49,411 nucleotides of DNA. Origin: Treponema denticola (GTDB lineage: Bacteria; Spirochaetota; Spirochaetia; Treponematales; Breznakiellaceae). The position numbers were made by a program, and so were the translations under genes. Positions 16,358 to 49,104 of this stretch are shown here, one piece after another. The first letter of the stretch is position 1; each line of letters opens with the position of its first letter. The stretch spans positions 1-49,411 of the forward strand of contig DYPP01000011.1 of NCBI GenBank assembly GCA_020719845.1. The letters run 5' to 3'. The notes under the pieces were generated by a model. It worked only from the letters and a program-made list of their open reading frames with translations, searched no databases and was not told where the DNA came from.

Positions 16358-16386
16358 CCAACATCCTCCCCCGGCAATCATTAGCA

Positions 16387-16512
16387 GGGTGTTGAAAAAG
16401 CCGGTTGCTTTTCCAACACCCTTCGCATTTGTTCGCGTTTCTAGTGAAACGCTGCACAAATGCAACATCAAGGTAGGCTGTTGAACAATCGCATACGCGA
16501 TTTTCAACAGCC
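16387..16512 (+). repeat. Three-hairpin intergenic element, copy A
   Basis: Hairpin 1 is 16387-16421: 8 bp, a mismatch, 5 bp, loop CCGGTTG. Hairpin 2 is 16425-16463: GCATTTGT/ACAAATGC, an internal loop, GCGTTTC/GAAACGC, loop TAGT. Hairpin 3 is 16476-16512: 10 bp, a bulged C, 6 bp, loop ATAC. The first and last arms can also pair with each other. It lies between the divergent rhodanese and GT39 genes. Related copies are at 38831-38943 and, inverted, at 48980-49104. Confidence 0.75.
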
Positions 16513-16526
16513 TGTTAGTTATATGC

Positions 16527-38830: not shown

Positions 38831-38943
38831 ATGAGTCCGCTCCAAAAACCGGTTGTTTTTAGAACGGACTTGAGCAATTCCTTACAGGAATTGCGTTTTA
38901 AGCGGAACAAGTCTATAAACTGAAGTTTTTGGAGTTGACTCAT
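38831..38943 (+). repeat. Three-hairpin intergenic element, copy C
   Basis: Outer arms at 38831-38849 and 38925-38943 match in 17 of 19 positions. The left arm can instead form hairpin 1 with its neighbour, closing a CCGGTTG loop flanked by AAAAA and TTTTT, the same loop as in copy A. Hairpin 2 is GCAATTCCT-TAC-AGGAATTGC (38874-38894). The element lies between the end of the dehydrogenase gene and the XRE promoter, at the left edge of the low-GC island. Confidence 0.7.
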
Positions 38944-38986: not shown

Positions 38987-39012
38987 GTGGAGTTTCAACG
39001 CGGAAACTCCAC
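38987..39012 (-). terminator. Hairpin after the dehydrogenase gene
   Basis: A 9-bp perfect stem GTGGAGTTT/AAACTCCAC around CAACGCGG lies 17 nt past the stop at 39029. There is no clear T run on the minus strand, so termination is possible but unproven. Confidence 0.4.
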
Positions 39013-39028: not shown

Positions 39029-40174
39029 TCAATGTTTCCGGGCGTAGCTAATCCAGCTTCGTTTCTGAACGCTTTCCACGATTTTATCCAGCAGGAGCAT
39101 TTCTTCCGTGCCGTGGTAGAAGGTAGGCAGATTGGGCGCTACGGACGTCGTGCCCTCTTCTACGGCCCGATAAAAATCCGAGAAAAGGTTGTATACCGCG
39201 TCGTAGTAGCCCAGCGGATGCCCACCGGGTAAACTTGAATAGGGTTTTACCGAGGGAGAAAGCAGGGCCGGCCCTTCAATTAAAATTTGATTTGGTTCGT
39301 CCCGTTTGCCGATCCACAGTTCGTTCGATCGGGCGTGGTTCCACGCCAGGGAGCCCTTAGACCCGTAAATCTGGAATTCGGTCTCGGACTTTCTTCCGGC
39401 GCAGGCTTGGCACGCGGTAAAAGTGCCAGGGACGTTTCCTTCCAGCCGAAAGGTCATGGCGGCGTATTCTTCCAGCTCAACTTGAACCGATTGCCCTTCA
39501 CCAGAGGCCGCGCTAAAGGCTTCATTGGCCCTTCTGGGTTTGATCCTTTGGGGAATGAGGGTCTTAAAATCGGCCAGTATTTCAGCTACCGAAAGCCCCG
39601 TGGTAAAACGGATCAGGTCAAACCAGTGACTACCCAGGTCCGCCGCTACGTTGGAATCCCCGCTTTCGGATTTTTCCAAACGCCAACTATAATCGGTGGC
39701 GTGGAAGAGCCAATCCTGAAACCAGGACCCGGTAACCATTCTAACGTCCCCAATAAAACCATCCCGGATTCTTTGTCGCGCCTCCAAGACTACGGGGTAG
39801 TAACGGTAACAGAAGTCGATACCGGTTACCGCGTTTTTCCTAAGGGATAGATCGTACAGTTCTTGGGCCTGGGCCGAATTGATGGCCAGGGGCTTTTCGG
39901 AAAAAACCGCCTTGCCAGACTCAAGCGCCGCCTTGCTTTGTTCGTAGTGTAGGGAGTTGGGACTGCAGACGTGGATTACGTCTATGCTGTCGTCGGCAAT
40001 CGCGTCCCTATAATCGGACCCAAAGGCGGGAATCCCGTGGGCCTGGGCAACCTGTTCCGCGGCGTGGGCATCCTTGTCCACCACCATGGCGAGTTCTATC
40101 CCCGAAAGTCGCTTGAGCGTTTCCACGTGTACCTTTCCGATATACCCACAACCTATTACGGCTACCTTTTTCAT
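39029..40174 (-). CDS. Gfo/Idh/MocA-family NAD(P)-dependent dehydrogenase
   Basis: This 381-aa oxidoreductase has the N-terminal Rossmann fold (VIGCGYIGKVH at residues 6-16), the EKPLAIN motif near residue 95 that includes the catalytic-region lysine, and DLGSHWFD in the C-terminal domain with the likely catalytic histidine. Members oxidise or reduce hydroxyl groups of sugars, amino sugars and inositols. The start overlaps the aminotransferase stop by 4 bases, so the two enzymes are made together and probably act in sequence on a keto/amino sugar or cyclitol. GC content is lower than in genes before 38 kb. Confidence 0.88.
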   Translation of the reverse strand: MKKVAVIGCGYIGKVHVETLKRLSGIELAMVVDKDAHAAEQVAQAHGIPAFGSDYRDAIADDSIDVIHVCSPNSLHYEQSKAALESGKAVFSEKPLAINSAQAQELYDLSLRKNAVTGIDFCYRYYPVVLEARQRIRDGFIGDVRMVTGSWFQDWLFHATDYSWRLEKSESGDSNVAADLGSHWFDLIRFTTGLSVAEILADFKTLIPQRIKPRRANEAFSAASGEGQSVQVELEEYAAMTFRLEGNVPGTFTACQACAGRKSETEFQIYGSKGSLAWNHARSNELWIGKRDEPNQILIEGPALLSPSVKPYSSLPGGHPLGYYDAVYNLFSDFYRAVEEGTTSVAPNLPTFYHGTEEMLLLDKIVESVQKRSWISYARKH

Positions 40175-41627: not shown

Positions 41628-42818
41628 ATGAATTTTAACAAAAAAGAACGGTTGATATTCAAGGCTATTAATGCGCTGGATGTGCCCACCTGCAACTCAA
41701 TTTCGGATCACGTTGGACTAAGCCGGGTTCTTGTGTCTTCTATCCTCACCGAAATGAAGGCCAAGCAGTATATCGCCGAAGAGGGAAAGACAAAGCAGGG
41801 AAGCGGACGTCCGTCCCATATTTATGAAATTTCGGCCCAAGTAGTGCGTACGCTGGGCATTTCGATGGGGCGGGACGCGATACACTGGGTTTCGTTGGAT
41901 TCTCGGGGAACGGCGATAGATTCCGGAATGATCGAGGGTGGTTTAGCCTCTATTGACGTGTTGGACGATGACGCGCTGCTTGGGCTGCTTAAGCCCATCG
42001 TGGCCGACCATGCGTCCGATAAGGATGGAAAAGGTCCCTTGGGAAGCATCGGTATTTCTATTCCAGGAATCGTTGATTATCAGTCTGGCCTTTGGCTTCA
42101 TGACTTTCGGCATCCGCGTTTTATTCCCAAGCCGCTCAAAGTTTTGGTGGAAAAGGCCTTTTCCACCAAAACAATCGTGGAGGACGCGGCTCGTTCCATC
42201 ACCTATCAGTTTTACCGAGCCGAAAAGTCCATTGGGGAACCGCTTATCTATATCTATTTAGGAGACGGCGTCGGGACGGGTATCATTATTAATGACGCCC
42301 TTTTCCGGGGCGCCGATGGCCTAGCCGGCGAAGTGGGGCACATTACGGTCAATCCGTCGGGTATTCGCTGTAGTTGTGGGAATATCGGTTGTCTAGAAAC
42401 CGTGGTTTCGACCCCGAACGTGCTCCGACAAATCCGGGATCGTCTGCAGGAAGGGGTGTTCTCGTCTTTGCACGGCGTATCGGACGGAGACTATTCCCAG
42501 ATAGGCGCGGATGTTATCGTCGCGGCGGCGAAGGAGGGGGATAAACTCGCGGAGTCGACCCTCTACGAGATTGGGGAATACTTGGCGGACGCGGTCATCC
42601 TCTTGACCAAGCTTTTTAATCCCCGGTCGATCGTTCTGGGTGGACCGGGTAGCGTGTATGGAAACTATTATACGACCCCAATCGAGCTCAAGATGCGGCA
42701 ATTCGTACGAACCGAAATGCTTTCGCATCTTCGTGTGTACATCGCTTCCTACGAAAGCCATCAAGAGGCGGCGGGTGCGGGACTATTAGCCTTGGACGAA
42801 TATTGGAACAACCTATAG
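41628..42818 (+). CDS. ROK-family transcriptional repressor (NagC/XylR-like)
   Basis: The 396-aa protein has a winged helix-turn-helix in residues 1-60 (TCNSISDHVGLSRVLVSSIL) and a ROK sugar-kinase-like domain. The ROK zinc site is intact: H238 with C248, C250 and C255 in CSCGNIGCLE. VEDAARS stands where active kinases have NDANAA-type sequence, so it is probably a sensor rather than a kinase. It is divergent from the aminotransferase operon and convergent, with a 6-base overlap, to the ceramidase-like gene. It likely controls the whole island in response to a sugar or amino sugar. No Shine-Dalgarno sequence is clear. Confidence 0.87.
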   Translation: MNFNKKERLIFKAINALDVPTCNSISDHVGLSRVLVSSILTEMKAKQYIAEEGKTKQGSGRPSHIYEISAQVVRTLGISMGRDAIHWVSLDSRGTAIDSGMIEGGLASIDVLDDDALLGLLKPIVADHASDKDGKGPLGSIGISIPGIVDYQSGLWLHDFRHPRFIPKPLKVLVEKAFSTKTIVEDAARSITYQFYRAEKSIGEPLIYIYLGDGVGTGIIINDALFRGADGLAGEVGHITVNPSGIRCSCGNIGCLETVVSTPNVLRQIRDRLQEGVFSSLHGVSDGDYSQIGADVIVAAAKEGDKLAESTLYEIGEYLADAVILLTKLFNPRSIVLGGPGSVYGNYYTTPIELKMRQFVRTEMLSHLRVYIASYESHQEAAGAGLLALDEYWNNL

Positions 42819-48825: not shown

Positions 48826-48979
48826 GAAATATTACGCTTATAAATAAATATGTTTATAATTACCTATTATAATCCTAAATATATCGTTTATTTTATTAAT
48901 ATTTTTACATTATTGCCGTTTCTGGTACTCCGGGAACCCTTTCTGAAAAAGGGGAATTTTAATCGTACACTACAGAGGG

Positions 48980-49104
48980 TTTTTCAAAATGCAGACGCAT
49001 TTTGAAAAAGCTACCTTATTTTGCGGCATTTGCGCACGGTTTCAAAGAAACCGGAGCAAATGCGGAGGCGCTTTCAAAAATAACCGATTTTTGAAAGCGC
49101 CTCC
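48980..49104 (-). repeat. Three-hairpin intergenic element, copy B (inverted)
   Basis: Read on the minus strand: hairpin 1 is a perfect 18-bp stem (49064-49081/49087-49104) with loop CGGTT flanked by AAAAAT and ATTTTT. Hairpin 2 has GCATTTGC/GCAAATGC outside and GGTTTC/GAAACC inside (49026-49063). Hairpin 3 is a perfect 13-bp stem (48980-48992/48997-49009). The order and loop match copies A and C in reverse orientation. It lies at the right edge of the low-GC island. Confidence 0.75.

Follow-up and report, generated by a model that had tools for sequence, protein, structure and literature searches.

Three-hairpin repeats of a Treponema denticola genome as likely members of an IS5-linked MITE superfamily

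We analyzed 49,411 nucleotides of a Treponema denticola contig (DYPP01000011.1; here, the window) and found that three stretches within it, copies A, B and C, are very probably members of an IS5-linked MITE superfamily, moved in trans and possessing a conserved three-hairpin fold. The copies are insertions, and the superfamily shares its ends with insertion sequences (IS) of related spirochaetes; from the sharp ends, the target duplications and the matching IS, we infer that the elements are MITEs mobilized in trans. The original prediction had left a choice between a structure under selection and a mobile fold-back element. Evidence for the latter comes from terminal inverted repeats (TIRs), the sharp boundaries of the elements, their 4-bp duplications, their dispersal in dozens of copies, and autonomous IS in two relatives that carry the same ends, whereas a non-coding RNA, the other form the prediction could take, is disfavored by the mismatch spectrum of the helices and by the Rfam searches described below.

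The three copies and their families in the host genome

Copies A, B and C share an ordered fold consisting of H1 (an A-run, CGGTT and a T-run), H2 and H3, and in all three the outermost arms are mutually complementary, as originally described. The folds of all three surpass those of dinucleotide-preserving shuffles by a wide margin (z: A, -10.3; B, -5.7; C, -10.6). A covariance model, R1, trained on A, C, two A-type copies and eleven elements from related genomes, with B left out, recovered every one of the copies in the window at E-values far outside chance (6e-19, 7e-16 and 1.7e-12 among the three). Apart from these, R1 matched the window only on the reverse strand of A and C and, weakly (E 0.2), at one place overlapping B. 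The existence of the copies thus held, and their exact ends, previously placed at 16387-16512, 38831-38943 and 48980-49104, were revised, those of copy A by alignment with near-identical copies on contigs C186 and C16. The features, named according to the MITE reading, are as follows.

16381..16384, forward strand: left 4-bp target-site duplication (TSD) TTAG of copy A, from the sequence and the TSD table
16385..16514, forward strand: copy A, a complete 130-bp three-hairpin MITE, from alignment to near-identical copies; covariance model score 82.2 bits
16386..16422, forward strand: H1 of copy A, with the left terminal repeat, the CGGTT loop (16402-16406) and the inverted terminal repeat
16425..16463, forward strand: H2 of copy A, with the internal loop TC (16433-16434) / TGC (16453-16455)
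16472..16476, forward strand: conserved GGTAG of copy A, the 5' foot of H3, from the sequence; GG columns conserved
16475..16513, forward strand: H3 of copy A, with the right terminal repeat at its end
16515..16518, forward strand: right 4-bp TSD TTAG of copy A, from the sequence and the TSD table
38832..38942, forward strand: copy B, a 111-bp three-hairpin MITE with terminal repeats TGAGTC...GACTCA; model score 66.3 bits although held out of training
38850-38854, forward strand: H1 loop CGGTT of copy B
38874..38894, forward strand: H2 of copy B (GCAATTCCT tac AGGAATTGC), without the TC/TRC internal loop
38909..38936, forward strand: H3 of copy B, decayed here and perfect in the family consensus
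48975..49104, reverse strand: copy C, a complete 130-bp three-hairpin MITE, with copies in C130 and C121 and subfamily C2 elsewhere; model score 96.8 bits
48980..49009, reverse strand: H3 of copy C, a 13-bp perfect stem
49011..49015, reverse strand: conserved GGTAG of copy C, before H3
49026..49063, reverse strand: H2 of copy C, with the TC/TGC internal loop
49064..49104, reverse strand: H1 of copy C, with the CGGTT loop and a perfect 18-bp stem

Some details of the original description had to be reassigned. The H2 arms GCATTTG/CAAATGC outside and GTTTC/GAAAC inside, attributed to A and B, in fact belong to A and C, copy B having GCAATTCCT/AGGAATTGC instead, and the third hairpin, attributed to the same pair, is present in A, decayed in B, and clearest in A and C. 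The example of compensatory change, GGGTGTTG/CAACACCC against GGAGGCGC/GCGCCTCC, is correct and applies to A against C. The absence of coding capacity was likewise upheld, the elements being short (109-168 bp) and gene-less. Palindromes of other kinds also occur in the window: a perfect 32-bp palindrome (GTTTTGGTGGAAAAGGCCTTTTCCACCAAAAC, 42141-42172), of a type other than the three-hairpin one; a hairpin with 21-bp arms and a 2-base loop (2090-2133), just past the stop of a 676-aa ORF (25-2055), perhaps a terminator; and, adjoining copy B, the hairpin GTGGAGTTTC/GAAACTCCAC (38990-39012) at the 3' end of a GFO/IDH/MocA-type gene (39029-40174), perhaps the terminator of that gene.

DNA searches showed that every window copy belongs to a repeat family of the host genome (3.3-Mb, 252 contigs), in which R1 found at least 67 places at E<1e-5, two of them overlapping, a lower bound obtained with 150 of the 728 candidates scored. 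Family A comprises two near-identical copies and a diverged subfamily, whereas in family C two copies are close and about ten others form a subfamily whose H2 differs. Family B is represented by about 20 full copies, to which copy B aligns with 84-95% identity, and an approximately equal number of fragments; many of its copies match the family consensus with 96-100% identity, implying that this family has recently spread in the host. An exact match to the B H2 palindrome on three distant contigs of other species was taken as chance. Two more host families, D (168 bp) and F (109 bp), were found by R1. A hybrid locus on host contig C121 (L033/L014), in which TGAGTC...GACTCA termini of the B type enclose a core of the C type, indicates that parts are exchanged between families. 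Separately, host contigs C195, C189, C5, C248, C147 and C28 end in or beside elements, which may contribute to the fragmentation of the assembly.

Insertion, target duplications and partner insertion sequences

Among 48 copies with defined ends, a set that counts the copies of three relatives in both orientations, the flanking 4-mers were identical in 21, compared with a mean of 1.3 and a maximum of 7 in 2,000 shuffles; flank identity over 3 or 5 bases showed no excess over the shuffles for these 48 copies. These flanking 4-bp duplications identify the copies as insertions. The two sisters of copy A are flanked by CTAG or CTAA/CTAG, family D has AATT on both sides in 3 of its 4 copies, and the duplications in relatives include TTCA, TTCT, TTTA, TAGT, AGAT, AGTA, CGTT and others. 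In the subfamily starting with GGACTTG, the duplication appears by eye to be nearer 3 bp, and window copies B and C have no exact 4-bp duplication. Relatives G176, G142 and G038 also have solo hairpins of 39-40 bp, built from both outer arms; in G176 and G142, 5 of 9 retain exact 4-bp duplications. The appearance of these hairpins suggests loss of the interior through deletion between the inner arms repeated in H1 and H3.

Autonomous insertion sequences with the same ends were identified in two relatives. In G028, an IS of 1,246 bp with terminal repeats GGGAACCTCTAAAAAC / GGGCATCTCTAAAAAC is present in at least three copies, three of which have a 4-bp duplication each (TAAA, ATAT and ATAT); it encodes a 343-aa IS5-family transposase (NF033581, 293 bits vs a cut-off of 140), and its ends are those of MITEs in G014, G078 and G038, with the same left repeat in host family F (L162). 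In G176, a search with the terminal-repeat pattern returned MITEs, solo hairpins and a single pair 1,322 bp apart, namely, an IS (L257, 1542-2863, 1,322 bp) that starts with GAGCCAATTTCAAAAGTC, ends with the inverse of GAGGCTCTTGCAAAAGTC and has ATAT on both sides. Its transposase gene specifies DUF772 together with a weak DDE_Tnp_1 domain and contains a few unread bases and one in-frame stop; the product scores under the cut-off for all named families, and the element is IS5/IS1182-like. Its left repeat is carried exactly by MITEs of the same genome. Both IS are without the hairpins.

The host genome yielded no match to PF01609 or PF05598 (DDE_Tnp_1, DUF772), so that the host partner must have been lost, be missing from the assembly or be of a different type; a partner IS in the host would be expected to bear TGAGTC..., CAGGGTGTTGAAAA... 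or GAGGC...TTTCAAAA ends. Across 35 genomes, there was no clear association between DUF772 transposases and MITEs, no convincing inverted terminal-repeat pairs 1-3 kb apart were found in G038, and the H3 core had no match in viral contigs.

The outermost 16-18 bp of the gene-less element are TIRs matching those of IS5-type (DUF772 plus DDE domain) IS of related spirochaetes. Under the mechanism we propose, the transposase of such an IS would bind these repeats in trans and excise or copy the element, which would be inserted by a 4-bp staggered cut; the ends, the duplications and the matching IS are observed, and the catalytic step is conjectural. Each terminal repeat is paired with its own inverted copy, giving a hairpin at each end (H1 and H3) with H2 between them, and the stems change through paired substitutions while the loops stay fixed. 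Pairing may be kept at the DNA level by hairpin or cruciform reading during transposition, or by template-switch correction of the palindrome arms.

Conserved shape, changing sequence and competing explanations

At E<=1e-6, R1 matches were found in 169 of the 294 genomes of the spirochaete order Treponematales, representing 61 of 83 genera and five families, with copies read by eye in families f1 and f4 and with the matches in f2, f3 and f5 resting on model score; the weak f3 matches may be partly due to chance. The covariance search for many copies with compensatory changes that had been suggested at the outset was thus positive. In all element families, H1 is a 15-18 bp hairpin with a CGGTT loop, and the 3' arm of H3 is the element end. 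Across 24 clusters, defined at less than 75% identity and averaging 0.50 in pairwise comparisons, the loop of H1 was conserved as C in 21/24, G in 24/24, G in 23/24, T in 24/24 and T in 24/24. Inside H2 lies an internal loop, TC / T(G,A)C, which families B and F do not have; across clusters, it reads T in 22/24 and C in 22/22 on one side, and T in 20/21 and C in 19/22 on the opposite side. The linker before H3 in most cases ends with GG plus two or three bases, G being present in 17/23 and 19/23 clusters. A 141-bp class at L111 and L114 (genomes G016 and G102) agrees in H1 and H3 but has an AT-rich H2 of another sequence (GGAGAAAAT...), and GGGTAAG stands before its H3.

The stems, meanwhile, change in a paired fashion. 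In an alignment that had been fitted to R1, 36 of 40 pairs had changes on both sides, 96.4% of the cells were pairing vs 68.2% after shuffling, and the covariation score was 0.715 vs 0.192 shuffled and at most 0.116 with partners slid by one to three columns; covariation therefore exceeds shuffled-sequence chance, as the original prediction required. A smaller MAFFT alignment agrees (24 of 40 pairs; 0.471 vs 0.147). Pairing within hairpins (95-98%) is kept much better than the identity between left and right terminal repeats (0.72; shuffled 0.59, maximum 0.65). Unusual features of these elements are hairpin pairing that outlasts terminal-repeat identity, the TC/TRC internal loop and the invariance of CGGTT in the H1 loop. 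The conservation of H2 and both loops is left unexplained by a plain MITE model, since the IS partners are without hairpins.

These features leave room for recognition of the fold, without amounting to proof. Within the MITE explanation, transposition could read the folded hairpins, as an extruded cruciform or a single strand, such that the substrate is the fold rather than the repeat sequence. We consider this possible but unlikely. The disparity between hairpin pairing and left-right repeat identity, the nearly invariant H1 and H2 internal loops, and the L033/L014 mosaic of B termini on a C core are all consistent with it, but the IS partners function with plain terminal repeats, and palindromes are able to self-correct by template switching without selection. 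It is a speculative, and likewise unlikely, suggestion that the machinery recognizes three-hairpin DNA, with CGGTT and TC/TRC as contacts, and that paired substitutions let the element change its terminal sequence, and hence its IS host, with the shape kept. If true, this would describe a shape-conserved, host-switching DNA parasite of a whole bacterial order.

The very strong covariation, together with the conservation of the unpaired CGGTT, TC/TRC and GG before H3 as stems change, would also be expected of a structured non-coding RNA family (sRNA or cis-regulatory), multicopy by chance, with pairing selected in the transcript. An RNA read from one strand is expected to tolerate G·U in helices, but isolated helix mismatches comprised 22 G·T and 29 A·C (totals 56 vs 40 among 2,873 cells). 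Because isolated G·T is not more common than isolated A·C, pairing kept at the DNA level is favored over a transcribed RNA. Furthermore, the elements occupy unrelated loci with target duplications, and no Rfam family matched at the gathering or a permissive threshold, either in the window or for the elements at six loci. An RNA family is therefore very unlikely.

The GGTAG that immediately precedes a hairpin in copies A and C and in family D, along with two Y1 transposase genes in the host genome, brings to mind REP/REPIN-like repeats moved by a Y1 tyrosine transposase (RAYT), GTAG plus H3 resembling a REP. Single-strand transposition by Y1 enzymes makes no target duplications, in conflict with the 4-bp duplications present here. 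Moreover, no element lies beside the Y1 genes of the host or of G038, the GTAG position reads GGTAA, GGTTG or GGAAC in most relatives, and the terminal repeats are carried by IS5-type partners. We rejected a RAYT/Y1 partner given the target duplications and the lack of linkage in the host, and regard this origin as extremely improbable. In G038, Y1 (RAYT-like) genes at L187 and L184 do lie amid repeated short palindromes (GGTGACTGTCACC at L187; GGTGCCAGGCACC/GGTGCCTGGCACC at L184), apparently a separate REP-RAYT system, and the 3.6-Mb genome G118 has 38 Y1_Tnp (PF01797) matches, far above nine relatives.

That the hairpins are host-kept intrinsic terminators or REP-like nucleoid or processing sites is hardly credible: they are intergenic in the window, but the T-tract after H3 is inconsistent, copy A is flanked by divergent genes, where a terminator would be out of place, and the 4-bp duplications attest to insertion. 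An integron attC site, suggested by the tail sequence of copy A, was dropped given the 4-bp duplications and the dispersed copies.

Implications and comparison with known systems

The MITE explanation would imply that host-associated spirochaetes harbor tiny mobile elements of a single family throughout an order, a family for which we found no description in Rfam or in open papers. Given that the conserved trait is the fold and not the sequence, ordinary BLAST repeat searches miss the family across genera. Paired changes in mobile DNA that shows no sign of RNA function set apart two customary interpretations of covariation and are a warning for structured-RNA discovery, and the diverged terminal repeats with their partner IS provide a natural series for studying co-evolution of DDE transposases and MITEs.

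Free-standing stem loops derived from IS605 on Borrelia plasmids are another spirochaete case of spread without a transposase and with compensatory changes; several evolve G-U pairs, which the authors read as RNA-level function (PMC2775950). Those are of the IS605 type, plasmid-borne and with G-U pairs, whereas the present elements have no G-U excess. REP/REPIN sequences and their RAYTs (PMC3116915, PMC3733652, PMC2817692) share with them the coexistence of solo and composite forms and perhaps foot-tagged hairpins (GTAG in A, C and D), but here there are 4-bp duplications and TIRs, no RAYT adjoins the elements in the host or G038, and the tag varies among relatives. ERIC/RU-1 (127 bp), RU-2 (168 bp) and RU-3 of enterobacteria (PMC2759123) are similar in size range, intergenic location and MITE-like character; they have no known sequence relation to the present elements, for which IS with the same ends are present in relatives. 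The closest parallels in kind are IS5-family MITEs, likewise gene-less, about 110-170 bp long, with TIRs in common with IS of related genomes, a 4-bp duplication and dozens of copies per genome. What sets the spirochaete elements apart from these is that their repeats are doubled into hairpins with a third hairpin between them, and that the fold and its loops are kept order-wide while the stem sequences turn over.
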